Below, piece after piece: positions 43,424 to 64,000 of a stretch of 64,000 bases of DNA. Below the pieces are notes generated by a model that was given only the letters and a program-made list of their open reading frames with translations, did no database searches and was not told the DNA's origin. The translations under genes and the position numbers were made by a program. Numbering within the stretch: position 1 is the first letter of the stretch; each line of letters begins with the position of its first letter. Source of the DNA: an uncultured Lachnospiraceae bacterium (lineage in GTDB: Bacteria > Bacillota > Clostridia > Lachnospirales > Lachnospiraceae); assembly GCA_946614165.1 (NCBI GenBank), contig CAMOGQ010000002.1, forward strand, positions 1-64,000. Reading direction: 5' to 3'.

Positions 43424-46400
43424 ATGAAAAAGAAAAAATCATTCCGGTGGGTGCGCCCTGCGGCGCTTCTTCTGTCTTTCATACTTGCGGCAGGGGCCTT
43501 TCCGCTGGGGACCCGGGCGGCAAAGACCTATAATACCTCCTATGAAAGCCTGGTATATAAGTATGGCGATGCCTACAGGGACCGCTATCCCGATCTGCCC
43601 TATATCTCCTGGATGATGGACTTTGCGGATGACCAGATCCACGGCTACGGGACCTACCAGGAAAAGAACGGCGCAGGCAACGGATACGAGCTGGATGTGG
43701 TCTGCTCCACGCTGATCTACTACGGTCTCTACTGCGCAGGCTACAACGTACCGGAATATATTGATATTTCCAGGGATGATGACATAGCCGCCGCCAGGTC
43801 CAGGATCATCAACGTACGGGACAACTTCTGCGCGGAGACCATGTACAGCAGAAAGATCATGACCAAGGCAGGCTTCAGGGCCATCCCCATCACCGGGGCC
43901 ACGAAGATATCCGACCTGAGGGAAGGGGACATTATCTGGATCTTTACCAAAAAACTGAAGGAACAGGACGAGGATGACGAATCCGCATACAGGGAAATGA
44001 CCAACAAGTCAGGCATGTATTATCATGCCGAGGCCGTAGTGGAGGTAGGAGACGGATATTTTGTTACCGTCGGTGCCCACGGCAGAGCGGGCCGCAAGGA
44101 CAACAGGCCGGGAGACAATCCGGCTGTCGACAACGTGGATGAGGTCTGCCTGCAGAGATATACCAACTTACATTATGACAGCAGGCCCGATCTTCCTTCC
44201 TACAACCTGATCTACCGTCAGACGGAGTCCACTCCCGTGGGGGACCCCAGGCCCTACCAGCCCGGTCTGATCCAGAAGTCCAGGGATATCCGCCTGAAGA
44301 TCAGCGGCAAGGGGGACCTCTACTTTGACAACGAGGACGCGCTGATCACCGATACGGCCGTGATCGGAACGGACGTTACGGTCCATGCGGTCCCCGATGA
44401 AGGCTATACGCTCAGGTCTCTGACAGCCAGAAACAGTATCAGCGGTCAGGAGATCACTCTGGAGAACGGAGGCAGTTTCCGCATGCCGTCCATGAGGCCG
44501 GGCGGGGCCATTACCATCCGGGCCAGATTCGTAAAAAGCCAGGAAGAGGAGGAAGGGCCCAGCGGCTGGGTCCAGGACGAAAACGAGAAGTCCTATTATT
44601 ATGAAGGCGAGAAGCTGACGGGCTTCCAGACCATCAAGGGAAATACCTACTATTTCGACAAAGACGGGATCATGCAGACCGGCTGGCAGCACATAAACGG
44701 GAATACCTATCATTTCCGGAAAAACGGCACCATGAGGACCGGCTGGCAGACCCTGTCCCGCAGTCAGTATTATTTTGACGACCAGGGCCGCATGCAGAAG
44801 GGATTTGTGCATGCGGACGGCAGGACCTGGTACACCGACAGGAACGGCGTCATGGTGACCGGCTGGCAGACCATAGGAGGAAAGACCTACTATTTCAGCC
44901 AGCATGAGGGCAGGGTCGGAGAAATGCTGACCGGGATCCGCAGAGTCGGCAGCTGCTACTACTATTTCGGACCCGACGGGGTCAAAAGGACAGGCCTGCA
45001 GGTCACGGAGGACGGCACCTACTATCTGGATCCCAAGTCTTCTCCTTCCGGCAGGATGGTGACCGGGATCCGGGTCGTAGGAGGCAGGAAGTACTTTTTC
45101 GGAGATGACGGAAAGGCAGCTTCGGGCTGGGTCACGATTTCGGGAAAGACCTACTACGTAAATCCTGCCACCAGTGCCGCGGTGACCGGCTTTCAGACCA
45201 TCGACGGCCATTACTACTATTTTGACGCTGGCGGGGTCATGAAGACGGGCTTCCAGACCATCCAGAAAAAGAAATACTATCTGGGCAGCGACGGGGCAGC
45301 CCTGACCGGCTGGCAGACCATAGGAGGAAAGACCTATTATCTGAACGAGAAGGGTCAGGCCAGGACAGGCCTTCAGACCATCGACGGCACCGGATACTAT
45401 TTTGACGGAAACGGGGTCATGAAGACCGGCGCTCAGACCATAGGAAAAAAGAGATATCTTTTTGACGAAAAGGGCAGGGCGTCCACCGGATTCCGGACAG
45501 TGGGCGGGAAAACATACTATGGAGACAGGAACGGCCAGATCCTGACCGGATGGCAGTCCATAGAGGGCCATTACTACTATTTTGACGCAGGCGGGGTCAT
45601 GAAGACGGGCGTCCAGACCATCCAGAAGAAGAAATACTATCTGGGCAGCGACGGGGCGGCCCTGACCGGTTTTCAGACCATAGGAGGTAAGACCTATTAT
45701 CTGAACGAGAAGGGCCAGGCCAGGACGGGCTTTCAGACCATCGACGGCAGGGGATACTTCTTTGACGCAGGCGGGGTCATGAAGACTGGCGTTCAGACTA
45801 TCAAAAAGAAGAAATACTTCTTTGGAGAGGACGGAGCGGCGGCCTTCGGCTGGCAGGAACTGTCCGGCAGAAAATACTACGTGGATGAAAAGGGACTGGC
45901 GGCGACAGGCGTAAGGACCATAGAAGGAAAAACCTACTGCTTCGACGGAAACGGGGTCATGAAGACAGGCGTTCAGACAATAAATAAGAAGAAATACTTC
46001 TTTGGAGAAGACGGCGCCTTAAGGACCGGCTGGCAGACCCTTTCCGGCAGGACCTGTTACGCTGACCAGAAGGGCATCGTCAGGACCGGCTGGCAGACCA
46101 TTGACGGAGCCAGGTACTTTTTTGACGGAAACGGCTATATGAAGACGGGCGTCCAGACCATTTCCAAAAAACAGTATTACTTTGCTTCTGACGGCAGGCT
46201 TGTCACCGGCTTTACAAAGGCCGACGGTAAGATCTTCTTTACCGATCAGAAAGGGGTCATCCAGAAGGGCAGAAGGACCATAGGCGGAAAGGTCTATTTC
46301 TTTGAAGGCTCAGGGGCCGCGTTTACGGGCGGCTTTAAGACCATCGACAAGAGGAGATATTATTTCGGCAGTGACGGAGCGGCCCTGACCGGCTGGCAGA

Positions 46401-46879
46401 CCCTGGGCGGAAAAACCTATTATTTTAACGCAGGCGGGCAGGCCGTCAGCGGCTTTGTCACCATTGAAGGGAAGCTCTACCGCTTCCTGTCCGACAATAG
46501 CCTGGATACGGCCGTGGGCCTCAGGACCATCGGCAGGAAGGTCTATTTCTTCGAGGAGGACCACAGCGCGGCCACCGGCTGGAAAGACCTGAACGGCCGG
46601 AAGACCCTTTTCGGCAAGGACGGGGCCCGCAGGAGCGGCTGGCAGACGGTGGACGGAAAGCGCTATTACCTGGACGGATCCGGAGCCGTAAGGACAGGTC
46701 TTGTGAGGGCCGGCAGATACCTTTACTTCTTTGATGAGGGCGGAGCCATGACGGTCAGTGCCTTTGTCGAGCATGGAGGAAGCACCTACTATTTCGGCAG
46801 GGACGGCAGGGCTTATACCGGCAGCAGGAAGATCGACGGAAAGACCTACAGGTTCGGCCCGGACGGGAAATTAAGATAA
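43424..46879 (+). CDS. Secreted cell-wall-binding-repeat protein with N-terminal NlpC/P60- or CHAP-like domain
   Basis: Signal peptide; ELDVVCSTLIYYGLYCAGYNVPEY ... YYHAEAVVEVGDGYFVTVGAHG (Cys/His candidate); then many ~20-aa TGWQTIxGKxYYFxxxG repeats. Confidence 0.88.
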   Translation: MKKKKSFRWVRPAALLLSFILAAGAFPLGTRAAKTYNTSYESLVYKYGDAYRDRYPDLPYISWMMDFADDQIHGYGTYQEKNGAGNGYELDVVCSTLIYYGLYCAGYNVPEYIDISRDDDIAAARSRIINVRDNFCAETMYSRKIMTKAGFRAIPITGATKISDLREGDIIWIFTKKLKEQDEDDESAYREMTNKSGMYYHAEAVVEVGDGYFVTVGAHGRAGRKDNRPGDNPAVDNVDEVCLQRYTNLHYDSRPDLPSYNLIYRQTESTPVGDPRPYQPGLIQKSRDIRLKISGKGDLYFDNEDALITDTAVIGTDVTVHAVPDEGYTLRSLTARNSISGQEITLENGGSFRMPSMRPGGAITIRARFVKSQEEEEGPSGWVQDENEKSYYYEGEKLTGFQTIKGNTYYFDKDGIMQTGWQHINGNTYHFRKNGTMRTGWQTLSRSQYYFDDQGRMQKGFVHADGRTWYTDRNGVMVTGWQTIGGKTYYFSQHEGRVGEMLTGIRRVGSCYYYFGPDGVKRTGLQVTEDGTYYLDPKSSPSGRMVTGIRVVGGRKYFFGDDGKAASGWVTISGKTYYVNPATSAAVTGFQTIDGHYYYFDAGGVMKTGFQTIQKKKYYLGSDGAALTGWQTIGGKTYYLNEKGQARTGLQTIDGTGYYFDGNGVMKTGAQTIGKKRYLFDEKGRASTGFRTVGGKTYYGDRNGQILTGWQSIEGHYYYFDAGGVMKTGVQTIQKKKYYLGSDGAALTGFQTIGGKTYYLNEKGQARTGFQTIDGRGYFFDAGGVMKTGVQTIKKKKYFFGEDGAAAFGWQELSGRKYYVDEKGLAATGVRTIEGKTYCFDGNGVMKTGVQTINKKKYFFGEDGALRTGWQTLSGRTCYADQKGIVRTGWQTIDGARYFFDGNGYMKTGVQTISKKQYYFASDGRLVTGFTKADGKIFFTDQKGVIQKGRRTIGGKVYFFEGSGAAFTGGFKTIDKRRYYFGSDGAALTGWQTLGGKTYYFNAGGQAVSGFVTIEGKLYRFLSDNSLDTAVGLRTIGRKVYFFEEDHSAATGWKDLNGRKTLFGKDGARRSGWQTVDGKRYYLDGSGAVRTGLVRAGRYLYFFDEGGAMTVSAFVEHGGSTYYFGRDGRAYTGSRKIDGKTYRFGPDGKLR
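44595..46870 (+). repeat. Tandem cell-wall/glucan-binding-type repeats (~20 aa; 180-nt higher-order period in part)
   Basis: GxxTGWQTIxGKTYYF repeats; 'GGGTCAT' + 'GAAGAC' recurs at 45240, 45420, 45600, 45780, 45960, with a variant at 46140. Confidence 0.9.
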
Positions 46880-49610: not shown

Positions 49611-50453
49611 ATGAAAAAGAAAGTATTTGCGGCCTGCCTTATGGCAGCTGCCATGACAGCAGTGACTGCCTGCGGGGCAGCAAAGCCCGCAGCACAGAAT
49701 GATTCCGGAAACGGGCAGATGACAGAAGAAGAGCAGGATGCCATGGGGCAGGAGCTTGCACAGGAGACAGACCAGATGGCGGAAGACATGCTGTCCGACG
49801 CCCAGACCATGGAAGACGATTTCCTGGATCAGGTCACCGGAGAGATGGATCTGGAGGGCAACTGGCAGGATGAGACCAGCGGGCGCGCCCAGATGGAGAT
49901 CAGCATGAATGAGGACGGGTCCTGCACGGCAATGATCTACTGGGGCGGGAGCGCCTTTGAGACAGCTGTCTGGGAGATCACAGGCACCTACGATCCTGCC
50001 ATGGGAAGCCTGAACTATGACAGCGCAAGGCACTATCTCCATATGGCGAAGGAAGACGGAACGGATGAGGAATTGGATGAGACCACAACGGACGGGTCCC
50101 TGAGCAAGTCCGGAGACAGGCTGCTCTGGAAGGATTCCGCCAACGATTATGAGGACCATTTCTTTGTAAAGGATGGAGAGGGCAACGGCTTCGACGGCTA
50201 CTATGTCAATGAAGAAGACGATACCCTGACTATTATGGAGGAAGAAGGAGGCTTTTTCGTGGAGATCCTGATCGGCGGAGCCTACTATGAAGGCACCCTG
50301 ACGGATTTTGGCGAAGGATTAAACGGTGATCTGCAGGGAGAAAACGATGAGACTGTCCCGGTGGTCATTCTTCCGGAGGGAGAAGGCATGCAGGTGAGAG
50401 TGGACGGAGGAGAGCCTATGTATTACGAGAACGCCATGAGCGCCATGGAATAA
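49611..50453 (+). CDS. Lipoprotein of unknown function
   Basis: MKKKVFAACLMAAAMTAVTACG lipobox; acidic; beta-rich C-terminal part. Confidence 0.78.
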   Translation: MKKKVFAACLMAAAMTAVTACGAAKPAAQNDSGNGQMTEEEQDAMGQELAQETDQMAEDMLSDAQTMEDDFLDQVTGEMDLEGNWQDETSGRAQMEISMNEDGSCTAMIYWGGSAFETAVWEITGTYDPAMGSLNYDSARHYLHMAKEDGTDEELDETTTDGSLSKSGDRLLWKDSANDYEDHFFVKDGEGNGFDGYYVNEEDDTLTIMEEEGGFFVEILIGGAYYEGTLTDFGEGLNGDLQGENDETVPVVILPEGEGMQVRVDGGEPMYYENAMSAME

Positions 50454-50492
50454 AGCGCTCAGACTGGACCGTTCCAAAAAGAAAGATCCAGG

Positions 50493-50529
50493 GCCGGAGC
50501 GGCAGCAGATGCTGCCGCTCCGGCTTTTT
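50493..50529 (+). terminator. Rho-independent terminator
   Basis: gccggagcggcagcagatgctgccgctccggcttttt. Confidence 0.9.
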
Positions 50530-50587
50530 ATGATACCTTCCTTTTGGATCGGTTCGATTGAGGATTAATAAATTTTTTACAATTTAA

Positions 50588-50614
50588 TTAGCACTCTTTA
50601 ATAAAGAGTGCTGA
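50588..50614 (+). promoter_or_regulatory. CIRCE operator (HrcA binding site) at the lon promoter
   Basis: TTAGCACTC-TTTAATAAA-GAGTGCTGA; CTGACA (50611-50616) and TGATATAAT (50631-50639) form a promoter with 17-nt spacing overlapping the site. Confidence 0.9.
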
Positions 50615-50723
50615 CAAAGTGAAAAACAGGTGATATAATCCTCCTCAGAAACGCCGCCTTTTCATTTGTTAAGGCATTTCCGGGCCCCGCGGCCCGGACC
50701 CAGTAAAAAAAAGGAGCAAAACT

Positions 50724-53009
50724 ATGGCAGCATTACCCATTTACAATATACTGGCGGTTCCGGATTCCAACGTCTATATCCAGACTGCCTATTATCAGAA
50801 CATGACGGGCAAGAGCCCTGTCAGAGAAGAAAAGGTCTATCTGATCTATATGAAGGAGGAGCAGGCCAGGGAGGACCTGACCAACGACAGCTTCCGGAAG
50901 ATCGGCCTGGCCGGTTCCATCACCGACGTGAACGACGACGGCTATATCGTGATCCGGATCAGGAACAGGATCAATATCAATTCGGTGGTGGTCTACAAGG
51001 ACCACAGCATCGATCTGTCCATTTCCAGAAGGGCCGACATCGACGATCTGGACAGGACCACCTACGCGGAAAGGCTCAGGGAGGCGAAAAGCGCTCTGGC
51101 CCAGTTCACGGAGGGCTACCAGTGGGGCCAGACCATGCGGGGCATGATCGCCCAGTGGACCACCATCGGCGAAGTGGCGGCGGCCCTGTCTCCCTGGATG
51201 ATGAACTCTCCCCAGGAGAAATATGACGTCATTGCCGAGGATTCCCTGGCAAAGCGGACCGACATGATGGAGCGCATGATCTATGAGAACCTGGAGATGA
51301 ACAGGATCCAGAGCGAGGCTTCCTCCGCCCAGGAGGAGGACTATCAGAAGATCTACCGGGAATCCGCCATCAAAAAGCAGATCGAATATCTGCAGAAGCA
51401 GTTGGACGACATGCATCCCGAGAACGTGACGGATCTCCGGAAGCTGGAGATCAGAATCGAGGAGTCGGGCATGAACGAAACGGCACGGAAGGAAGCCGAC
51501 AAGGTCATGAACCGGCTCAAGCAGGAGGGGCAGAACAGCGCCGAGTACGGCATGCTCTATGACTACCTGGATTTCCTGACCGGCCTGTCCTGGAAGAAGG
51601 AAAAGGCCAGAGACATCGATCTGGACGAGGCGGAAGCTGTTCTGGAGGAGGATCATTTCGGCCTGGAAAAGGTCAAGAAGAGGATCATCCAGCAGATCGC
51701 GGTCATGAACCTCAAGGGCCAGCAGGCAGGTTCCATCCTTCTGTTCGTGGGCGCTCCCGGCACCGGCAAGACCAGTATCGGCCAGAGCATCGCCAGGGCC
51801 CTGCAGCGCAAGTACGTCAGAGTCTCTCTGGGCGGCGTCCGGGACGAGGCGGATATCCGGGGCCACAGAAGGACTTATATCGGGGCTATGCCTGGCAGGA
51901 TCATGGACGGAATTTCCAAGAGCGGCGTTTCCAACCCGGTCATGGTCCTGGACGAGGTGGACAAGCTGGGCGCTTCCTACAACGGAGACCCGGCCAGTGC
52001 CCTGCTGGAGGTGCTTGATCCCGAGCAGAACGGGACCTTCACCGACCACTACATGAACGTGCCCTATGATCTGTCCGGGGTCATGTTCATCTGCACGGCC
52101 AATTCGGTGGATACCATCCCCGAGCCCCTGCTCAACCGTATGGAAGTCATTCAGTTCCAGGGCTACACCCCTGCGGAAAAGCTGCAGATCGCCAGAAGGC
52201 ATCTGCTTCCCAAGGCCATGAAGGCCGTGGGTATCAAGGAAGAGAACCTGTCCGTCAGCGACCAGGTCCTGGAGACCATCATTTCCGAATATACCAGGGA
52301 AGGCGGCGTCAGGGGACTGAAAAAGCGCATGGATACCCTGTGCAGGTCCGCCGCCGTGGAACTGGTCAGGGGCCATGAAGGCCCGGTGGAGGTCACGGAG
52401 GACAGGCTCAGGGATTTCCTGGATATCCGTCCCATGCGCCACGGAAGAGTGAAGGAGACCGCAAAGCCCGGCATCGTGACAGGCCTTGCCTGGACGGCCG
52501 TTGGCGGCGAGATCCTCTATATCGAGACCCTGCTGACAAAGGGCAGCGGGCGCCTGACCATCACCGGCCAGCTGGGGGACGTGATGAAGGAGTCGGCCCG
52601 GATCGCCGTCAGCCTGGTCAAGTCCATGTTCCCCGACAGGGCGGAAGTCTTTGAAACGAACGACCTTCATATCCATGTGCCGGACGGCTCCACCCCCAAG
52701 GACGGGCCTTCGGCGGGCATTACCCTGACCACGGCGCTTTCCTCCCTGATCACGGGGATCCCGGTCAGGCCCGATACGGCCATGACCGGAGAGATCTCTC
52801 TCCAGGGCGGCGTCAACCCCATCGGAGGCCTGCCCGAAAAGCTGATGGCGGCCCAGAGAGCCGGCGTCAGGAAGGTCTTCATTCCGGAAGAGAACGAGGA
52901 CGACCTGAGGGACGTGGCCCAGGAGGTCAAAGACCAGTTGGAGATCATCCCTGTCAGCGAGGCGTCCCAGGTCCTCAGGGAGCTGGGCATCCTTCCCGGG
53001 GAAGGATGA
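50724..53009 (+). CDS. lon: ATP-dependent protease La (LonA)
   Basis: Walker A VGAPGTGKTSIGQSIARAL, GGVRDEADIRGHRRTYIGAMPGRI, catalytic DGPSAGIT. Confidence 0.95.
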   Translation: MAALPIYNILAVPDSNVYIQTAYYQNMTGKSPVREEKVYLIYMKEEQAREDLTNDSFRKIGLAGSITDVNDDGYIVIRIRNRININSVVVYKDHSIDLSISRRADIDDLDRTTYAERLREAKSALAQFTEGYQWGQTMRGMIAQWTTIGEVAAALSPWMMNSPQEKYDVIAEDSLAKRTDMMERMIYENLEMNRIQSEASSAQEEDYQKIYRESAIKKQIEYLQKQLDDMHPENVTDLRKLEIRIEESGMNETARKEADKVMNRLKQEGQNSAEYGMLYDYLDFLTGLSWKKEKARDIDLDEAEAVLEEDHFGLEKVKKRIIQQIAVMNLKGQQAGSILLFVGAPGTGKTSIGQSIARALQRKYVRVSLGGVRDEADIRGHRRTYIGAMPGRIMDGISKSGVSNPVMVLDEVDKLGASYNGDPASALLEVLDPEQNGTFTDHYMNVPYDLSGVMFICTANSVDTIPEPLLNRMEVIQFQGYTPAEKLQIARRHLLPKAMKAVGIKEENLSVSDQVLETIISEYTREGGVRGLKKRMDTLCRSAAVELVRGHEGPVEVTEDRLRDFLDIRPMRHGRVKETAKPGIVTGLAWTAVGGEILYIETLLTKGSGRLTITGQLGDVMKESARIAVSLVKSMFPDRAEVFETNDLHIHVPDGSTPKDGPSAGITLTTALSSLITGIPVRPDTAMTGEISLQGGVNPIGGLPEKLMAAQRAGVRKVFIPEENEDDLRDVAQEVKDQLEIIPVSEASQVLRELGILPGEG

Positions 53010-53051
53010 TCCTTTCGCCGTACATATATTCTGCAGGAAAATATACATAAG

Positions 53052-53093
53052 ACCGGGGCCTTTCATGAGATTCATGAAGGGCCCCGGTTTTTT
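53052..53093 (+). terminator. Rho-independent terminator after lon
   Basis: accggggcctttcatgagattcatgaagggccccggtttttt. Confidence 0.92.
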
Positions 53094-53184
53094 GAGGAGG
53101 GGATCTCTTTCGGGGTACACTTTGCGGCCTGCGGTGATAAAATGGTATGAAATAAGGTTTACAGCCATTTACGGAGAGGAAGCT

Positions 53185-56088
53185 ATGAAGAAAAAGATGG
53201 GAATTATTCTGGCCCTTCTGCTTCTTATGCAGTCTCTGCCTGTCAGCGCGGCAGATCTGCCGGAACAGACAGAGCCGGCGGCGCAGGAAGCGGCAGTCCC
53301 GGAGGAAAAGGAAGAAAGGGAAACGGAAGCAGAGGCTTTCGGAGATGCAGAGGGGAAGATAGAGGAAACAGACAAAACAGACGAAACTGCCGCGCAGGCA
53401 GAGGAGCCATCCTCTGACAATTTCCCGGCCGGGCCCCTGCCCGAAGAAGAGAAGGAAGAAGGGACAGGGGATGAGGAGGCCGGAGAGGAAAAGGCCCCGG
53501 CTCTTGCGGCGCCCTCTCCTAAAACGGAGATGAAACTGGTCTCCGGGGCCGAGGTGGACGTCGATACGCCCGTCTGCGGCTATCTGCCGCAGGATCCCGA
53601 AGGTTATTCCTACACGGACGGCGTTGAAGTGGCGGAAGTCCACTGGGCACTTTCCTGCAGTGCCGATTCCTATACGCCCCAGACAGAGAAATTTGAGGGA
53701 GATCAGGTCTATACGCCCTGGATCAGGCTGGAAACGACAGAGGGCTATGTCTTTGACCGGGACATAACGATCACCTTTTTTAAGGGAGGAGATTTCGGCC
53801 CTGTTGAAATAAAGCCTCTGTACGTAGACGATGCGGGCCTGGTCTTTGCGGGAGAGATCGTCTGCGAGCATGACTGGGATTATGATAACGAGATAAGGAC
53901 AGAGCCCACCTGTATTCAGGACGGCGAAGTCACCCGCGTATGTCTGGGAGATCCTTCTCATATCCAGCATTATACGCTGAAGGACCCGGACGCCCACCAA
54001 TGGGGGGAATGGGAAATGGTCAGGGAAGCCACCAAGGCCGGTGAAGGTGAACGCGTCAGGATCTGTGGGCTCTGCGGAGAAAAAGAGACCGAAGCCATTC
54101 CCAGAGTGACCCTTCCCTATTCCCGGGTCTACGAACCGGAGACCTCCTGGCCTATGGCCGCCACCATAGCGTGGAAGGCTGACCAGAGCGCCCTGGAAAT
54201 AGCGGGAGAGGAGAAACGCCCCGCCACGGCTTTTGTATGGCTGGACAGGGAACTGAAGGTATATGACAGGAACGGAAAACTTCTTTCCGACGATCTGGAC
54301 GCCTACGTGGACGCCACGGCTCCTTCCGTGATCCCCGCCTTTTATATAAGGGACAGGGAAACGGCGGATAACCTGAAGGAATGGATCTCCGGCTTCGGCC
54401 TCCTGGACTGCTTTGTGGTCTCGGAGCCCGGGAGCAGGGATCTGGTAAAGGACGTGGCAGATCTTGTGCATGTAAGGGGCATGCTGGATTATACCGGCGT
54501 AAAGAACCCTGACAGAGAGACCCTTCTGGACATGGCCGCCTCCACCAACGGAGCCCACGGCAAGGTGCTCCTTCTTTCTCAGGAGGCGGCCACCCGTGAA
54601 AACGTGCGTCTGCTCCAGTCCCTGGCCTCCACGGTCTGGGTACAGGCGGACACGGACTTAAAGTCCCTGGTCACCCTGTATACCAGGGGCGTCAACGGGG
54701 TCCTGGTGGATGATTTCGGTCCCGCCGTCAGCGCGGAAGAACTCTTTCAGGATGAGCTTCCCTCCCTCCTGCGCATTCCCTTTGTGATCGGACACAGGGG
54801 AGATCCTTCCCGGTACGTGGAGAATACCCTGGATTCCGCCATGGGCGCCTTCAGAGAGGGAGCCGATTCGGTGGAGAACGACATTCACCTGAGTTCAGAC
54901 GGCGTACTCTTCATTTATCATGACGATATCCCGGGCCGTCTCATGGACCTTGAGGATGAAGACGAAGACGGGCAGAGTGTCATGATCGAGGCATACAGCT
55001 TCGAGGAGCTTCTGAAGCATCCTCTGGTATGGGAGAAGATCATAGAAAACAATGAAGTGGCCGGCGAGTTTGTCCGTTACGGGACCCTTTACGGCCAGGA
55101 GGAGGAAAAAGTCTATACCCTGCCGACCCTGGAGGAATACATAAAAGCCTTCAAGGGCACAGGCCTGATCCACGATACGGAGATCAAGAGCTATGATCCC
55201 GCCATCATTCCCGTATATAAGGAAATGGTGGACTCCTGTGACGCCTGGGACCAGTTCTTTACCATTACATTCAATAAGGAGATCCTGGACGCCATTTACA
55301 GGGATTATCCCGAGATCTCCATAGGAGCCCTGGGCATGGGGACTTTTACAGAGGTCCAGTATCCCGAATACGGGCCCATCCTGGAAGAAGAAGGCCTCTC
55401 AGCGGCGCTGAAGGTCCTTCTCGGGGAGACGGACCGGTGGAACGCCACCTTCAATCCTGCTCAGGACTGGTGCCCGGACGAGCTTATGAGCGCCATCCGC
55501 CACAGGGGACAGACCATCTGGCCCTGGACCTATTTCCTGGCCGGGGACTTCGCCAGGGATTATCTGAAGGCCGTGACCGGCCTGACCACAGACTTTGCCT
55601 GGCACGGCTCCGATCTGCTTGTGGAGATCTCCGGCGGAGATCAGACAGTCTTATCGGAAAAACAGGTGAAAAAGCCGGTGGGCATTACCCGGAAGGGAGA
55701 AGAGAAGACTCTGGAAGAGGCTGACCTCGTCCGTCTGCAGGATCTGGGAGAGGGGGCCGGCCTTATGATCTGGCGCTTCAGGACTTCCATTGACATCGAA
55801 GGAGAGAACCTTGGGGAATATTATCTATACTCCGAACCTTTTGTTCTGAAGATCACAAAGCCCCAGGGAGGCGCTTCCGGGAAGGACAGCGGGAAGAAAG
55901 ACAGCAGCGCCGGAGAAAAGGCAGGGAAAGAGGGCAAAAAGACGGATAAGACCCGGTCTGTTCCTGCGACAGGCGACAGGTCCGGGGCCCTGGCATGGGC
56001 GATCCTGGCTTTTGCGGCCCTTCTTGGCATGTGCCTTGCGAAAGCATTCAGGGGCCTCAAGTCTGAAGGGCGGCAGGTTGCTTTTTGA
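53185..56088 (+). CDS. Large surface protein with glycerophosphodiester phosphodiesterase domain
   Basis: Signal peptide; acidic linker; GDPD motif IGHRGDPSRYVENTLDSAMGAFREGADSVENDIHLSSDGVLFIYHDD; C-terminal VPATGD + TM + basic tail (sortase-like). Confidence 0.85.
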   Translation: MKKKMGIILALLLLMQSLPVSAADLPEQTEPAAQEAAVPEEKEERETEAEAFGDAEGKIEETDKTDETAAQAEEPSSDNFPAGPLPEEEKEEGTGDEEAGEEKAPALAAPSPKTEMKLVSGAEVDVDTPVCGYLPQDPEGYSYTDGVEVAEVHWALSCSADSYTPQTEKFEGDQVYTPWIRLETTEGYVFDRDITITFFKGGDFGPVEIKPLYVDDAGLVFAGEIVCEHDWDYDNEIRTEPTCIQDGEVTRVCLGDPSHIQHYTLKDPDAHQWGEWEMVREATKAGEGERVRICGLCGEKETEAIPRVTLPYSRVYEPETSWPMAATIAWKADQSALEIAGEEKRPATAFVWLDRELKVYDRNGKLLSDDLDAYVDATAPSVIPAFYIRDRETADNLKEWISGFGLLDCFVVSEPGSRDLVKDVADLVHVRGMLDYTGVKNPDRETLLDMAASTNGAHGKVLLLSQEAATRENVRLLQSLASTVWVQADTDLKSLVTLYTRGVNGVLVDDFGPAVSAEELFQDELPSLLRIPFVIGHRGDPSRYVENTLDSAMGAFREGADSVENDIHLSSDGVLFIYHDDIPGRLMDLEDEDEDGQSVMIEAYSFEELLKHPLVWEKIIENNEVAGEFVRYGTLYGQEEEKVYTLPTLEEYIKAFKGTGLIHDTEIKSYDPAIIPVYKEMVDSCDAWDQFFTITFNKEILDAIYRDYPEISIGALGMGTFTEVQYPEYGPILEEEGLSAALKVLLGETDRWNATFNPAQDWCPDELMSAIRHRGQTIWPWTYFLAGDFARDYLKAVTGLTTDFAWHGSDLLVEISGGDQTVLSEKQVKKPVGITRKGEEKTLEEADLVRLQDLGEGAGLMIWRFRTSIDIEGENLGEYYLYSEPFVLKITKPQGGASGKDSGKKDSSAGEKAGKEGKKTDKTRSVPATGDRSGALAWAILAFAALLGMCLAKAFRGLKSEGRQVAF

Positions 56089-56154
56089 GTCTTTGTATCA
56101 TATATTAGGATAGAAGATTCCAAGAAACGCACACCCATGTGAAAAGGAAAGAAA

Positions 56155-56841
56155 ATGGCCAACGATACCAAGATCAAGATCGGCGGACGCACGATCACTT
56201 TAAGCGGCAGTGAAAGCGCCGAATATATGCAGAAGGTGGCGGAATACCTGAACGGCAAGAGGAACAGCTTCAACGAGGATTCCTCATTCTGGACCCTGCC
56301 CGAGGATATGAAGAATATCATGATCCAGCTGAACCTGGCGGATGACTATTTCAAGGCCAGGGAACGGGGAGAGAAGCTGGACAAAACCATCGAAGCCATG
56401 AAGGAGGCCCATGTCAAAGAGCTGGAAGAGGTCAGGGAAGAGAGCCGGCAGGAGCTGGAGAGGGCCCTGCATCAGTCCCAGGATGACAACATCCTGGAGA
56501 TCGAATCCCTGAAAAAGCAGCTGAGCGAGACAAAGACCCAGCTGACAGGGACCCAGACCATTATGAAGCAGCTCCAGGCATCTCTTCAGAAGGAGAAGAC
56601 CAGGACTTCGGAAGCGGAAGAGACCCTGGAGAAGGAAAGGGCAGCCATAAAGGACAAGGAGCAGAGACTTTCCCGGGATGTGAAGAATGCCCAGGACAGC
56701 GCCGACAGGGCAAGGGCGGAGCTGGCCCAGAGAAAAACCTTATGCGAAATGACCGCAAAGGAGATCGATGCCCTGACCCAGTCCAAGGCAAAAATGGACG
56801 CGGTCATTGCAAGGCTCCAGGAAGTCAGGAGGAATTTCTGA
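56155..56841 (+). CDS. ZapA-domain protein with C-terminal coiled coil
   Basis: IKIGGRTITLSGSESAEYMQKVAEYLNGK...MKNIMIQLNLADDYFKARE (ZapA-like), then a long heptad-rich region. Confidence 0.8.
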   Translation: MANDTKIKIGGRTITLSGSESAEYMQKVAEYLNGKRNSFNEDSSFWTLPEDMKNIMIQLNLADDYFKARERGEKLDKTIEAMKEAHVKELEEVREESRQELERALHQSQDDNILEIESLKKQLSETKTQLTGTQTIMKQLQASLQKEKTRTSEAEETLEKERAAIKDKEQRLSRDVKNAQDSADRARAELAQRKTLCEMTAKEIDALTQSKAKMDAVIARLQEVRRNF

Positions 56842-56908
56842 CGCCCGGACCACAGACTAAGGAAGGAAAAAGGAGGTCTGTATCTGCGGACCTCAGGTTA
56901 AAAGATCA

Positions 56909-58147
56909 ATGAGCGAACTGAAAGACATCAAGATCACCATAGGGGGCAGGACCCTGGTCCTGTCCGGCGAGAGCGAAGAATACATGCAGAAGGTGGCTGC
57001 CTATCTGAACGGAAAGCGCAAAAGCTTTCATGACGATTCCAACTACTGGAAGCTGACGGAAGATATGAAGAATATCATGCTGCAGCTGAACCTGGCAGAT
57101 GATTATTTCAAGGAGCAGGACAAAGTCGCGGAACTGGAAAGACGCATGGACGGCATCCGACAGCAGGCCAGAGAGGAAGTGGGGGAAGAACTCACTTCTC
57201 TGAAGCAGGAACTGCAGGATACCAGACAGACGGCCGCTGCAGAGCTGAAGGAGACCAGAGACCGGGCAGACGCAGCCTACAGGGACCTGGAGGAATCCTC
57301 CGCCAGAGAGCTGAACCAGACAAAGGCCTCCCATGCCGTGCAGCTGAGGGAGATCCGGGAAGCTGCCGCGGCAGAGCTCTCCTCTGTCAGGGAGAAGGCG
57401 GCCGCAGACCTGGATGAGACCAGAAGGAACGCCGCCCAGGCCATGGAACAGGCCAGGGAGGCGGACAAGAAAGAGATCACTTCCCTGAAGGGACGCTTGG
57501 CCTCCATCGACATGGAGCATGCCAGGCAGGTCCGCGAGATCCGTCAGGAGGCAGACAGGAAGCTTTCTGCCCTCAGGGCGGAGACCTCAAAGGCCTATGC
57601 CGATATGGAGACTTCTCTGAAGGAGACCATAGAGAGCGAGAGACAGGACCGCCAGAAGCTGGTGGATGCCGAGAAGGCCCGTCTGCGGGAGCAGTTTGCC
57701 AGAGCCCGGGAGGAGGACCGTCAGAAGATGGAAGCCGCCCGGAAGAAGATGGACGAAGAAATGGAGGCGGCCCAGGAGCTGATCGGTGAGCAGCAGGATG
57801 AACTGGACCGGCTGAAAAAAGAGCTGGAACAGGGCAGGGAGCAGGCCAGACAGACGGCCGCGGAACTGAGCGCAAGGATCGCCGCCCTGCAGAAGGAGAA
57901 GGAAGGTCTGACGGGTGAGATCGCCGGCCTGAATGAGGAGCTTGGATCTCTTCAGGAAGAAAAGACAGGGCTGGAGATCAGCATGGAAGAAATGCGCGCC
58001 GAGACCGAGACCTTAAAGGACGACATCGCCGCCAGGAAACAGGTGGCAAAGGTGACCGCCGCCCAGATCGAAGCCCTGACCAGGTCCAGGGAAGCCATGG
58101 ACGAAGTGATCGGCAGACTGGAAGAGATCAAAGAAAAACTTGCATGA
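56909..58147 (+). CDS. ZapA-domain protein with extended coiled coil (paralogue of upstream gene)
   Basis: IKITIGGRTLVLSGESEEYMQKVAAYLNGKRKSFHDDSNYWKLTEDMKNIMLQLNLADDYFKEQ, then ~300 aa coiled coil. Confidence 0.8.
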   Translation: MSELKDIKITIGGRTLVLSGESEEYMQKVAAYLNGKRKSFHDDSNYWKLTEDMKNIMLQLNLADDYFKEQDKVAELERRMDGIRQQAREEVGEELTSLKQELQDTRQTAAAELKETRDRADAAYRDLEESSARELNQTKASHAVQLREIREAAAAELSSVREKAAADLDETRRNAAQAMEQAREADKKEITSLKGRLASIDMEHARQVREIRQEADRKLSALRAETSKAYADMETSLKETIESERQDRQKLVDAEKARLREQFARAREEDRQKMEAARKKMDEEMEAAQELIGEQQDELDRLKKELEQGREQARQTAAELSARIAALQKEKEGLTGEIAGLNEELGSLQEEKTGLEISMEEMRAETETLKDDIAARKQVAKVTAAQIEALTRSREAMDEVIGRLEEIKEKLA

Positions 58148-58776
58148 ACACGAAGATCAAGATCTGCGGACTGACAGACCCCGCCGAAGCGGCTTATCTG
58201 AAGGAAATCCGGGCAGACTATGCGGGCATGGTCCTGTTCTTTCCTTCCAGCAGGCGCTGCATCGATACGGAAAGGGCCGGGGAGATCATAAGGGCCCTGG
58301 AAGGGGAAGTCCTGCCGGCAGCGGTCATGGTATCCCCCTCTCCGGACCAGGTCCGGGAGGCCTGCGGGGCGGGCTTTTCCATCCTGCAGATCCACGGCAG
58401 CCTGACGGAGGAAGCCCTTTCGGCCTCACGGGTCCCCGTATGGAAGGCCTTCAATGTAAAAGACATGGACCAGGCTGTAAAATACAGGGAGGATCCCCGC
58501 ATCACGGCCTTTGTGTTTGATGCGGTCCTTCCGGGAAGCGGAAAGAGCTTCGACTGGGACCTTCTGAAAAAGATGCAGGATCCCGGAAAGCCCTTCTTTC
58601 TGGCAGGCGGCCTTGACGCCGGGAATGCGGAGGAAGCCGTTCTGCGGGTCCGTCCCTTCGGGGTGGATGTATCCTCCGGCGTGGAATATAAAGACAGAAA
58701 AGGCAAGGATCCCGAAAAGATCCGGGCCTTTGCATCGGCCGTCAGGGCAGCTGACAGGCTTCTATGGGGAGAGTGA
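58144..58776 (+). CDS. trpF: Phosphoribosylanthranilate isomerase
   Basis: KIKICGLTDPAEAAYLKEIRADYAGMVLFFPSSRRCI...ILQIHG...FLAGGLDAGNAEEAV...GVDVSSGVE; overlaps the upstream stop. Confidence 0.92.
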   Translation: MNTKIKICGLTDPAEAAYLKEIRADYAGMVLFFPSSRRCIDTERAGEIIRALEGEVLPAAVMVSPSPDQVREACGAGFSILQIHGSLTEEALSASRVPVWKAFNVKDMDQAVKYREDPRITAFVFDAVLPGSGKSFDWDLLKKMQDPGKPFFLAGGLDAGNAEEAVLRVRPFGVDVSSGVEYKDRKGKDPEKIRAFASAVRAADRLLWGE

Positions 58777-58779
58777 CCT

Positions 58780-59958
58780 ATGAGACACCGGATCACCGCA
58801 CTTATCATATCTGTACTCCTTGCCTTCCAGGCCTCAGGCTGCAGCGCGGTCACGGAAAAGGCCCAGGAAAATGCCCAGGAGAAGGCGGAGCAGGCCGCCG
58901 AAGAAATGGCAGCCCAGGGAAAGGTGGAAGAGGATGCGGAGCCTGAGCGCAGGGCGCTGAAGGCTGCGGTGCTTTACGATTCCCTGGAAGACGCCAAGAC
59001 CAGGGCCATCGCGGGACATCTGCGCGAGAAGCTGAAAGCCATTGACGTCAAAGCGGACGAGTATGAAGCCGGGGGCGATTTTGACCTGCAGCTGCAGCAG
59101 GCCGTATCTGCCATAGAGAAGGGCACCGATGTCCTGATGGTGGAACTGGTGGATGAAGGCTATTCCAACGAAGCGGAAGAGATCTGCAGGGCCGCTGCGG
59201 ACCAGGGCGTTCCCGTGATCTTTTTCTACAGGGAGATCGAGCTGAGAGATGAACAGGGACTGATCCTGGACCACTATGACAATACGGCCTTTGTGGGACC
59301 TTCCGTCAGAGCGGCCGGCCGTGTCCAGGGAGAAATGATCGGAGAGTATGTCAGGGACCATTACAGCGATCTGGATCTTAACGGCGACGGACGGATTTCC
59401 TATGCTCTCTTCAAGGGAGACAACCTGTCCGAGAAGGCGGACCTGCGGACCAGGACCAGCGTGGAGAATGCTTCTTCCGTCCTGACGGAGGCAGGCTATC
59501 CGGCCCTGACCTATTTTGACGAGAGCAATTCCTACGGCTACCAGCTGGACCTGACGGAGACCTGGTCGGCTTTTTCCGTCAGGGACTACATGGAGACCAA
59601 TCTGGCCCTCTATAACGAGGAAAAGGGAAACATGATCGAACTGGTCATCTGCAACAGCGACCAGATGGCGGAGGGAGCCGTGCAGGCCCTGAACGCCGCG
59701 GGCTATAACCTGGGAGATGACGAAAGCACCACCATTCCCGTATTCGGGATCGACGGGACCTATATGGGCAGGGAACTGATCCAGGGAAGGAAGATGACAG
59801 GAACGGCAGTGTGCGACGCGGGAAAGATCGCGGAAAAGATGGCCGCCCTGGCAGACAATTTGTGCCTGGGAAAGGAACTGACCGGGGATTCGGACAAAAA
59901 GCGCTTTACGGTGGACTACGAAAAGGTCATGGCAATGGAAGAGAAAAAGGAAGAATAA
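58780..59958 (+). CDS. Periplasmic-binding-protein-like (MglB/RbsB-type) lipoprotein
   Basis: Lipobox QASGC; sugar-BP fold motifs AVLYDSLEDAKTRAIAGHLREKLKA, LNGDGRISYALFKGD (MglB-like), VFGIDGTYMGRELI. Confidence 0.85.
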   Translation: MRHRITALIISVLLAFQASGCSAVTEKAQENAQEKAEQAAEEMAAQGKVEEDAEPERRALKAAVLYDSLEDAKTRAIAGHLREKLKAIDVKADEYEAGGDFDLQLQQAVSAIEKGTDVLMVELVDEGYSNEAEEICRAAADQGVPVIFFYREIELRDEQGLILDHYDNTAFVGPSVRAAGRVQGEMIGEYVRDHYSDLDLNGDGRISYALFKGDNLSEKADLRTRTSVENASSVLTEAGYPALTYFDESNSYGYQLDLTETWSAFSVRDYMETNLALYNEEKGNMIELVICNSDQMAEGAVQALNAAGYNLGDDESTTIPVFGIDGTYMGRELIQGRKMTGTAVCDAGKIAEKMAALADNLCLGKELTGDSDKKRFTVDYEKVMAMEEKKEE

Positions 59959-59984
59959 GGTATCCTGAAAAAGGATCCGGGACA

Positions 59985-60021
59985 TGCAGACAGACACAGG
60001 GGACCCCCTGTGTCTGTCTGC
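59985..60021. terminator. Long near-perfect inverted repeat between convergent genes
   Basis: gcagacagacacagggg-acc-ccctgtgtctgtctgc; no T-tract on the + strand. Confidence 0.5.
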
Positions 60022-60065
60022 GTTCCGGGACCATTAGGAGAGGAGCAATTTGGTTTCTTTCGGTT

Positions 60066-62375
60066 TTATTTCTCCGCTGTAATAGCCACCCGGGCTGATG
60101 CGGAGGATTTGCCGTCCCAAGCGGTGACGGTAAAGGCGCCTTCCTTTCCCGCGCGGACGATGGCAAGGCTCCTCCCGTAATAGGTCCGGAAGGACCCGGT
60201 ATGGTACTGTTCCTTTGTGCAGGGATTGGCGGATCCGAAAGCCAGAAGCTCGCCGCCCTCTACGGTGACGGTAAGGGCGCGGTCGGCGGAGGATTCCACG
60301 GTCCCGTCAGAGCCTTCGATATTGACAGGAACATACACAATTTCACCGGGCTTTGCCTGTTCTTTCTCCGGCCGCACGGCGATTTCAAGGGTGCCTTTTG
60401 CGGAAGAAAGGCTGGATCGCCCTGTCTCCCGGCCGCCGGCGTCATAAGAGACAGCGGTCAGGGTGCCGGGGACGTACCTGGTCTTATAGACCGCCCGGCA
60501 TTTCTTTACCTTTTTCTTTCCAAGGCTTTTGCCGTTTAAGAAAAGCTCCACCCGGTCCTGATCGGAGTAGACCTCCACCAGGGCCTTGTTGCCGTCACAC
60601 CCGGACCAGCTCCAGGAGAGGATGGCGTTGGTGCCTCTCCATACGGATTTGGATACCCGCACCCCCGGATGATTGACTGGGCGCACCGCGATCACAGGCC
60701 GATCCTCCAGGCCCCAGACCGTGGAGGCATACTTACAGCTGCCGTCCGGAATGCCCAGGATGTCGATCACCCCGGCCCCTGCCAGGAGCCAGGGGTAAGG
60801 CCGGTTGAAGGGCATGCCGCCGGTATAGCTCCAGGCGCCTATGCCGGCTTCGCCAAGATAGTCCCAGGCGGTCCACATGAAGTCGCCCACCAGATAGGGG
60901 TACTTCTTTACCATCTGCCAGTTCTTCCAGATGTCCTGGGGGAAGGTCTCCGACCCGAAGATGACCCGGTCCGGATGGGCCTTTGCCTCCAGGGGATAGC
61001 GGCCGGAGCCGTAATTGTAGCCCGCGATATCCAGAAGGTCCAGGAAGGGCGTTGTCAGGGCGTCCACCTTTTTTGAGTTTCCTCCCCTGTTCATGCCGGA
61101 TCCCACGAAGGAGGCCATGATGTTGAACATGAGAGAAGCGTTCTGCCCCTCCTTTTCTGCTTTTCCTTCTCCGCCGCCGGTGGTCTGCTGGCCGTCCTGA
61201 TAGATGCCCTTTCCTCCCGCGGCCCGGCCGATGATCATGAGATTGGTGCCGCAGGTGACGGGGCGGGTGGGATCCAGGCTCCTGCAAAGCTCAATAAGCT
61301 TCCGTCCTGTCTCCAGGCCTCTTTTTTCGGCCGGCTCCGCTACTTCGTTGCCTATGGAGTAAAGGATGACAGAGGGGTGATTGAAGTCCCGCCGTACCAT
61401 GGCAGCCGTATCGGCCTGCCAGTTCTTTTCAAAGTCCAGGCCGTAGTCATAGGGGTTCTTGCGGTTGTACCACATGTCGAAGGCCTCGTCCATGACATAC
61501 ATGCCCAGCCGGTCGCAGGCATCCAGGAGGGCTTTTGAGGCAGGGTTATGGGAAGACCGGATGGCATTGAAGCCGTTCTCCTTCAGGATCCTGACCCGGC
61601 GCTCCTCGCTTTCGGCATAAGTGGCGGCTCCCAGGATGCCGCTGTCGTGGTGGACGCAGCCCCCGCGGAGAAGGGTCTCTTTTCCGTTGATAAAAAGGCC
61701 TCTGTTCGACCAGGTGATCTGACGGATGCCGAAGGGGATCTCCATGGTGTCCCCTTCCCCGGCGGTGATCCTGGCGGTATAAAGATGCGGATCTTCATCG
61801 CTCCAGAGGGCCGCGTCAGGGATGGTCAGGGTAAAGTCCGTGCCCCGGCCCCGGATACCGTCCACGTCGGCCGTTACCGCTGCGGGACTTTCAATCCGTA
61901 TGACGGCGGGATCCAGGGAAAGGGTGGATATTTTTACGCTCTCCGGGCGAAGGCCTTCTTTTTCGCATATGTGCAGCCATACGGGCCGGTAGATGCCGGC
62001 GCCGCAGTACCAGCGGGAGTTGGGGAGCTTCGAATTGTCCGCCCTGACGGTCAGGGTATTATCCTGGCCGATCTGGATATCTGTCAGCTCGGCAAAGAAG
62101 CCGGTATAGCCGTAGGGATGGAAGACCAGCTCCTTTCCGTTCAGGGAAACGGAGGCGTTTTTATAGACGCCCTCGAACTCTGCCAGGACAGTCTTTCCTT
62201 CCCACTCCGCAGGAGCGGCAAAGACCTTTTCATAGGTATAGATCCCTCCGGGAAAATAGCCGTGGCCGCCGCCCCCGACGTCTGCCCCCCGCTTTTCCCT
62301 GATCTGGGCGTCGTGGGGCAGGGTTACGGGCACGCCGCTGCAGGTCCAGTCTGTATTAAAGGAAATGGTTTTCAC
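60066..62375 (-). CDS. Glycoside hydrolase family 2 (beta-galactosidase-like)
   Basis: RGGCVHHDSGILGAATYAESEERRVRILKENGFNAIRSSHNPASKALLDACDRLGMYVMDEAFDMW; SIGNEVAE. Confidence 0.92.
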   Translation of the reverse strand: MKTISFNTDWTCSGVPVTLPHDAQIREKRGADVGGGGHGYFPGGIYTYEKVFAAPAEWEGKTVLAEFEGVYKNASVSLNGKELVFHPYGYTGFFAELTDIQIGQDNTLTVRADNSKLPNSRWYCGAGIYRPVWLHICEKEGLRPESVKISTLSLDPAVIRIESPAAVTADVDGIRGRGTDFTLTIPDAALWSDEDPHLYTARITAGEGDTMEIPFGIRQITWSNRGLFINGKETLLRGGCVHHDSGILGAATYAESEERRVRILKENGFNAIRSSHNPASKALLDACDRLGMYVMDEAFDMWYNRKNPYDYGLDFEKNWQADTAAMVRRDFNHPSVILYSIGNEVAEPAEKRGLETGRKLIELCRSLDPTRPVTCGTNLMIIGRAAGGKGIYQDGQQTTGGGEGKAEKEGQNASLMFNIMASFVGSGMNRGGNSKKVDALTTPFLDLLDIAGYNYGSGRYPLEAKAHPDRVIFGSETFPQDIWKNWQMVKKYPYLVGDFMWTAWDYLGEAGIGAWSYTGGMPFNRPYPWLLAGAGVIDILGIPDGSCKYASTVWGLEDRPVIAVRPVNHPGVRVSKSVWRGTNAILSWSWSGCDGNKALVEVYSDQDRVELFLNGKSLGKKKVKKCRAVYKTRYVPGTLTAVSYDAGGRETGRSSLSSAKGTLEIAVRPEKEQAKPGEIVYVPVNIEGSDGTVESSADRALTVTVEGGELLAFGSANPCTKEQYHTGSFRTYYGRSLAIVRAGKEGAFTVTAWDGKSSASARVAITAEK

Positions 62376-63670
62376 AGTTTTTCTCCGTTGGATTCGATGA
62401 TCCGGGCGTAATACCTGGCAGAATCCTTGATGGTCCGTTTCTGGGTGTCATAGTCTACATGGATCAGGCCGAAGCGGGGGCCGTAGCCGCTGCACCATTC
62501 AAAGTTGTCCATGATGCTCCAGTGCTGATAGCCCAGCACCGGGATGCCCTCGTCCGCGGCCCGCTTCATGCTGGCGATAAAGTCGTGGAGGAAGGTCCTG
62601 CGGATCTCGTCATGGACATGACCGTCTTCGCCCACTTCGTCGGGGTTTGCCATGCCGTTTTCCGTCACCATGACGGGCAGATGGTAGCGCTCCCAGTACT
62701 GCCTTATGGTCCAGTAGAGGCAGCGTCCGTCGATGACCCAGTCCAGCATGGTTTTGGGCAGTTTTTCCGTGTCGTAGCCTTCCTTGTCCAGCAGGGGGTT
62801 GGAGGGCTGATAGACGTTTACGCCCACGAAATCCATGGGCTCGGAAATGATCTTCAGATCCTCCTCACTGAGGATTCCGGCCGTCATGGGGCTGGCCTTT
62901 CCCAGGGCGATGGGGTCCATATACAGGGCATTGCTGCCTTCGCCCACCTGGGAGAGAAAGGATTTTTCAGCCGCATCCGCAAGGCCTGCGGCATCCTCGC
63001 TGCGGGGAATGTAAGTGGTGGCTGCCATGGCCAGGCCGATCTTCGGCGTCTTTTTCGCGGTCTCCCGGATCAGTTTCACGGCCTTTCCGTGGGATAGCAG
63101 CATATGGCGCAGGGCTTTCATGCAGGCCTGGGGATCACTTATAAAGGGAGCAAAGCTGCCCAGGGCGTAGGAGAGCATGATAAAGACGGAGGGTTCGTTG
63201 AAGGTCATCCAGTACTGCACCCGGTCCGAAAGGGCATCTACCACCACTTTGACATAGTCCAGGTAGGCATCGATGATTCCGGGGGCGGGCCAGCCTCCTT
63301 CCTCGTGGGCCCAGAGGGGCAGATCCCAGTGGTAGAGGGTCACCAGAGGCTCGATCCCGGCTTTTTCCAGCTCCGAGATCAGGTTCTGATAGAATTCGAT
63401 CCCCTTCTGATTGACTACGCCCTTTTCCGGCATGATCCGGGGCCAGGAGACGGAGAAGCGGTAGCTTTTCAGTCCCAGTTCCTTCATCAGGGCCACGTCT
63501 TCCTTATATCTGTGGTAATGGTCGCAGGCTCTGTGGCAGTCCTGACCGCCCTGGATATGGTCCCCGGCTGCGTCCCAGATGCTGGGACATTTGCCGTCTT
63601 CATTCCAGGCGCCTTCTACCTGGGCCGCGGCGCTGGCCGCGCCCCATAAAAAATCTTTGGAAAAACTCAT
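62372..63670 (-). CDS. Glycoside hydrolase family 1 (6-phospho-/beta-glucosidase)
   Basis: FLWGAASAAAQVEGAWNEDGKCPSIWD, YRFSVSWPRI, WMTFNEPSVF, VTENGMANPD; overlaps the GH2 start. Confidence 0.94.
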   Translation of the reverse strand: MSFSKDFLWGAASAAAQVEGAWNEDGKCPSIWDAAGDHIQGGQDCHRACDHYHRYKEDVALMKELGLKSYRFSVSWPRIMPEKGVVNQKGIEFYQNLISELEKAGIEPLVTLYHWDLPLWAHEEGGWPAPGIIDAYLDYVKVVVDALSDRVQYWMTFNEPSVFIMLSYALGSFAPFISDPQACMKALRHMLLSHGKAVKLIRETAKKTPKIGLAMAATTYIPRSEDAAGLADAAEKSFLSQVGEGSNALYMDPIALGKASPMTAGILSEEDLKIISEPMDFVGVNVYQPSNPLLDKEGYDTEKLPKTMLDWVIDGRCLYWTIRQYWERYHLPVMVTENGMANPDEVGEDGHVHDEIRRTFLHDFIASMKRAADEGIPVLGYQHWSIMDNFEWCSGYGPRFGLIHVDYDTQKRTIKDSARYYARIIESNGEKL

Positions 63671-63722
63671 ATATGCTCCTTTCCGAAAGGGCGGAGGGCC
63701 GTCCCCCGCCCGGCAGCCTTTC

Positions 63723-64000
63723 TTACTTTTCTTCTGCTTTGTGCAGGCTCTCCCGCATCTTTGAGCGCACTTCGTTGGTGATGGGATAGCGGCGCTCGAT
63801 CAGGTAGGCGATGATGCCCAGTACGAAGGGGATCAGGCCCATGATCACGATGAACCAGTTGAGCATGACCGGCATGCGGCTCAGGTCGCCCGCAAAGTCG
63901 CCTGTCTCGGAGTCCACCACGTAGCCGATGCCTGCCAGCATGAAGCCAACGACGCTTGCGCCGACAGCGTTCTGGGCCTTATTGATAAAGCGGTTGAGGG
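63723..64000 (-). CDS. C-terminal part of GPH/MFS-type sugar:cation symporter (5' end beyond window)
   Basis: Frame continues past window edge; NRFINKAQNAVGASVVGFMLAGIGYV...WFIVIMGLIPFVLGIIAYLIERRYPITNE typical of GPH transporters. Confidence 0.75.
   Translation of the reverse strand, partial: LNRFINKAQNAVGASVVGFMLAGIGYVVDSETGDFAGDLSRMPVMLNWFIVIMGLIPFVLGIIAYLIERRYPITNEVRSKMRESLHKAEEK

Follow-up and report, generated by a model that had tools for sequence, protein, structure and literature searches.

The window, a 64 000-nucleotide stretch of DNA from an uncultured Lachnospiraceae bacterium, contains two tandem genes for ZapA paralogues with long coiled-coil stalks, which are accessory to an ordinary ZapA (115 aa, encoded beside ruvB) in the same genome. 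The chances that these long-stalked paralogues act as cross-linkers of the Z ring are judged to be about evenly balanced. The genome carrying the window amounts to 3.78 Mb in 288 contigs and is 88% complete.

Both ORFs were found in tandem, head to tail on the + strand, where the first-pass annotation had placed them (Table 1); of the sizes given there (229 and 412 aa), the larger was borne out and the short protein was found to have 228 residues. The proposed layout of similar heads, a variable middle and a shared tail was recovered, the two heads being 76% identical, the middles 27% and the tails 44%. In comparison with the nearest relative, G019, the overall dN/dS was 0.10 for both genes, and the heads had accumulated five (short) and eight (long) synonymous changes and no amino-acid change in either protein. 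The stalks gave values of 0.105 and 0.13 and the tails 0.163 (short) and 0.043 (long), so that in this comparison the tail of the short protein is constrained no more than its stalk. This purifying selection and the unaltered heads show that the pair consists of real genes.

Table 1. Features of the extended zapA pair (window positions) and of a repeat array in a related long gene (locus positions)
Feature	Position	Strand	Evidence
Short extended zapA paralogue	56155..56841	+	ORF, 228 aa; Pfam ZapA 52.6 bits; dN/dS 0.102 vs G019
ZapA-like head, short protein (residues 1-67), SFWTL in alpha1-alpha2 loop	56155..56355	+	Pfam residues 6-93; AlphaFold strands 5-9, 12-16, helix 18-32; 0 amino-acid changes vs G019
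Coiled-coil stalk, short protein (residues 68-195)	56356..56739	+	single helix 50-227, pLDDT >90; hydrophobic period 3.58
Tail, short protein (residues 196-228)	56740..56838	+	14/32 positions identical to tail of long protein
Long extended zapA paralogue	56909..58147	+	ORF, 412 aa; Pfam ZapA 29.9 bits; dN/dS 0.103 vs G019
ZapA-like head, long protein (residues 1-68), NYWKL in alpha1-alpha2 loop	56909..57112	+	Pfam residues 7-102; 0 amino-acid changes vs G019; AlphaFold strands 7-11, 14-18 (low confidence)
Hendecad (11-residue) coiled-coil stalk, long protein (residues 69-378)	57113..58042	+	hydrophobic period 3.65; self-similarity lags 11, 33, 22
Tail, long protein (residues 379-412)	58043..58144	+	44% identity to tail of short protein; dN/dS 0.043
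33-bp array in long zapA	L035 9430-9531; same gene in L036		one unit difference between close relatives G033 and G043

The proposal that the heads are ZapA-like was upheld by several signs. Scored on the whole protein, both exceeded the gathering score of Pfam ZapA (PF05164, 23.8 bits); the NCBIfam equivalog NF010724 'cell division protein ZapA' (cut-off 80 bits) was not reached (24.6 and 14.6 bits). AlphaFold placed a strand, a strand, a helix and a long helix in the ZapA order in both proteins, with a head pLDDT of only ∼50-65, and Foldseek ranked ZapA entries 1-5, none of them significantly (E = 0.46-2.2). Among the positions that contact FtsZ in the E. coli/K. pneumoniae complex, Gly12, Arg13 (as R or K) and Asn60 are kept in the extended heads, and Arg16, Asn18, Gln23, Arg46 and Thr48 are changed, most of the latter being lost in the ordinary ZapA of the same genome as well. 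In the solved complex Asn60 contacts the N-terminal tail of FtsZ, and the α1-α2 loop is the part of ZapA that changes shape in order to recognize this tail (PMC12216130). It is this loop that carries the motif [YF]W.L, present in 21/21 extended and 0/28 ordinary ZapAs; a different ligand may be bound there.

A search among relatives for the same head-plus-tail architecture found extended ZapAs in 17 of the genus's 62 genomes; as many of the assemblies are incomplete, the absence of a gene from one of them proves little. Four carriers (G000, G019, G033 and G043) have the tandem pair, G047 has a short form alone, eleven have a solo long form (319-417 aa) and G046 has a divergent one. Their heads are 76-86% identical, and a tree of the heads separated all extended from all ordinary ZapAs with support of 100/100, the columns being few and the inner forks unsure. 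The nearest named genome with both genes was Lachnospiraceae bacterium UBA3287, the only match in a contig scan using the single long protein as the query. A solo-family profile, applied at E ≤ 1e-27 to the other genera of the family, matched only ordinary-length ZapAs, and a search of 395 family and 387 class genomes for the [YF]W.L DNA pattern found no ZapA besides the window's own; both searches were strict and could miss diverged relatives. ZapAs carrying the motif outside the genus were rejected, as the pattern matches in five other genomes all lay outside ZapA genes. In the open-access library of papers that was searched, no description of such long or duplicated ZapAs was found.

The coiled-coil middle that had been read from the sequence appeared in single-chain AlphaFold predictions as a long helix in both proteins, with a pLDDT above 90 in the short one. 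A hydrophobic period near 11/3 together with 11-residue self-similarity was found in the long protein (period 3.65, power 16.9 against a shuffle 99th percentile of 7.8; self-similarity peaks as in Table 1) and not in the short one, the stalk of which is mixed (period 3.58, power 7.6 against 6.8). Solo-family stalks peak nearer 3.5, as mixed heptad/hendecad coils. A side observation in the solo long stalks (L038-L048) is a strongly conserved stretch at about residues 126-172, with KRFGAEKSRA.

Stalk lengths, counted between the LNLADD of the head and a fixed position of the tail, fell on a grid of 11 residues. The six distinct lengths of the solo family (239, 294, 305, 316, 327 and 338) are all 8 modulo 11, with one exception (279); those of the long pair members (337, 359 and 370) are all 7 modulo 11; and those of the short pair members (155 and 144) are both 1 modulo 11, with 126 as an exception. 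Head-to-tail length differences were multiples of 11 in 8/10 comparisons, which was reached in 0 of 200 000 random-length simulations (P < 5e-6); the modulus was picked after the data had been seen, and the period of the long stalk is a separate sign. There was no excess at any other modulus from 5 to 19, and heptad quantization was rejected, modulus 7 being common to only 1/10 comparisons. At the DNA level, a 33-bp tandem array occupies the same place in the long zapA of G033 (3.1 copies) and G043 (2.4 copies), the proteins of which differ by exactly one 11-residue gap, and 33-bp or 66-bp tandem repeats were found in G033, G043, G009 and G018. Tandem duplications of 33 bp thus supply the 11-residue steps. 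Slippage alone gives multiples of 11, and the steps therefore show a mutational mechanism; the near-absence of other surviving lengths suggests selection for phase. Most extended genes no longer contain the DNA repeat (many genomes are incomplete assemblies, in which short repeats may be collapsed), yet their lengths keep to the grid. The first-pass annotation had supposed that a distance is set by the length of the stalk. A fixed ruler is unlikely, because the stalks of orthologues in related species are one to several 11-residue units apart in length; likely instead is a rod that keeps its phase and tolerates changes in length.

The two tails of the window share 14 of 32 ungapped positions, a number reached by 0/20 000 shuffles and higher than the 12 of the best match between the stalks, aligned without gaps at every offset. 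A shared tail is therefore retained from the earlier description, with the correction that the short protein reads RLQEV where RLxEI had been quoted. It had further been supposed that this tail docks a common partner. The tails are indeed alike within the genome, but identity between the pair-type tails and their G033 orthologues is only 28-34%, and a different, strongly conserved tail (82% identical against 60% in the stalk) occurs in the solo family, with no homology to the pair type detected by hhalign. Because the tails diverge between species, they point only weakly to a common docking partner.

The genome of the window encodes one FtsZ and one SepF. No FtsA scored over the cut-off in 12 genomes (G000 and 11 related), all of which encode SepF; in C. 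difficile, which is without ftsA, zapA and sepF are essential (PMC12548448). A second FtsZ as a private partner of the extended proteins was rejected, one FtsZ being present in 27/27 genomes checked. Within the genus, 27 genomes have a true MreB, among them none of the 17 carriers of extended ZapA; matches near 1e-22 in ORFs of ∼640 aa were taken to be DnaK. Extended ZapA is thus carried by 17/35 MreB-less against 0/27 MreB-bearing genomes. The 35 MreB-less genomes, some of them 97-98% complete, group as one clade (100/97) of an FtsZ tree, with 16 carriers in one sub-clade (84/73) and G046 apart. The absence of MreB from the whole clade suggests a single loss and non-rod cells, with the extended ZapA perhaps gained once. 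An independent statistical link between the two traits was rejected, since a single clade counts as one event.

Ordinary ZapA is a dumbbell-shaped tetramer that bridges FtsZ filaments (PMC12754632, PMC12216130). By analogy, the extended heads would dimerize and bind FtsZ filaments in the same way, and the stalks would assemble into a rod, its stiffness and antiparallel packing being assumed; like the stalk of the ZapA tetramer, it would probably be an antiparallel four-helix bundle. With a helix rise of 0.15 nm per residue, the reach of such a cross-linker would be ∼24 nm for the short and ∼51 nm for the long protein, against ∼7 nm for the ordinary ZapA of the genome. Z-ring filaments could then be bundled or spaced over a longer reach in a clade without MreB and recognizable FtsA, and stalk length would be tolerated as long as the coiled coil keeps its phase. 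The conserved ends could reflect an antiparallel bundle in which the tail lies on the opposite head, or docking of the tail to another partner. A fuller scenario can be put forward only tentatively: a ZapA sub-family confined to the genus, its modular stalk evolving in phase by single 33-bp units, may have been recruited as a long-reach Z-ring organizer in the MreB-less, FtsA-less lineage, the two tandem lengths (∼24 and ∼51 nm) building a layered ring.

Alternatively, the proteins might be tethers, close to what the first-pass annotation had in mind: a parallel dimer with its heads on the Z ring and its tails 24-51 nm away, docking a membrane, nucleoid or wall-synthesis partner, the two proteins linking a single partner at two distances. 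The similarity of the two tails, above that of any stalk stretch, the low dN/dS of the long tail and the conserved solo tail all speak for this arrangement, which is regarded as possible and less probable than cross-linking; the orthologous pair-type tails have diverged, however, the genus has two tail types without homology, and tail conservation would be explained just as well by contact with the opposite head in an antiparallel bundle. It seems unlikely that the paralogues have abandoned FtsZ altogether and become a scaffold for some structure unrelated to division, binding another ligand through the changed loop. Such a change of function would account for a motif confined to the extended ZapAs in the very loop that faces FtsZ, and it agrees with the retention of an ordinary ZapA and with neighbouring genes for transport and metabolism, not division; against it stand the high conservation of the heads and the kept Asn60 and Gly12 positions.

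Least probable by far is drift, in which the 11-residue steps are mere slippage of a 33-bp repeat, length is uncritical and the proteins do nothing special that ordinary ZapA does not. The tandem repeats in four genomes mean that slippage alone can supply the steps, but stalk dN/dS values of 0.10-0.13, and lengths that stay on the modulus-11 grid in genes from which the repeat has gone, speak against it.

Under the preferred reading as Z-ring cross-linkers, the near-identical heads sit on rods of ∼37 to 52 nm in the solo family and 24/51 nm in the pair, which would form a natural set for testing whether cross-linker length governs Z-ring architecture.

Ordinary ZapA (PF05164), a Z-ring cross-linker of ∼85-150 aa, has the same head domain, a helix following the head and the Asn60 and Gly12 positions in common with the window pair, which differs in its stalks of ∼160 and ∼340 residues instead of ∼45, in the [YF]W.L loop and in occurring beside an ordinary copy. 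The closest solved relative by sequence, an uncharacterized 138-aa protein (PDB entry 3hnw), aligns with the head over residues 3-87 (E = 1.8e-16), but is shorter and has the loop ESYRRM without tryptophan. Other Clostridia (L121, L122, L123, L124 and L126) have long ZapAs of 282-649 aa, in most cases with a heptad stalk and often as the only ZapA found, and ZapA stalks have therefore been elongated more than once. Those of L121 (538 aa) and L122 (649 aa) likewise combine a ZapA head with a long coiled coil; they differ in being the sole ZapA found in their genomes, in their heptad period (3.50-3.51) and in the absence of [YF]W.L. The long ZapA of L124 (534 aa) is a second copy beside an ordinary one and has a period of 3.58. 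ZapB, ZauP and EzrA are also long helical proteins of the Z ring that act with FtsZ or ZapA, but as separate chains without a ZapA head. SMC arms are coiled-coil rods between conserved ends that are limited to certain lengths (PMC5344682), but they are heptad-dominated, change in steps near 100 residues and have unrelated ends. The extended ZapAs offer a clean natural case of a coiled coil changing length in 11-residue units.

A promoter scan of the pair gave nothing convincing, and there were no Rfam matches in 50000-64000. The long zapA and a PRA isomerase (trpF-like) gene overlap by ATGA, and the pair is preceded by the gene for a GDPD-domain protein and by lon. No division genes are adjacent to the extended zapA loci of the pair or solo type, the neighbours being transport and metabolism genes. 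A conserved division-gene neighbourhood was accordingly rejected: the pairs are located near lon and a Peripla_BP_4 gene, and the solo long zapA keeps its place between PTS_EIIC_2 and Na/Pi cotransporter genes in most carriers (L038-L048). The large GDPD-domain protein directly 5' of the pair (53065-56088) has a signal-like start and a PATG motif plus hydrophobic C-terminus and looks sortase-anchored; its gene is absent between lon and the zapA pair in G043. Further upstream in the window (46139-46879), an ORF consists of repeated G-[WF]-x-x-[IL]-x-G-x-x-Y-[YF]-F units, which resemble cell-wall-binding repeats.
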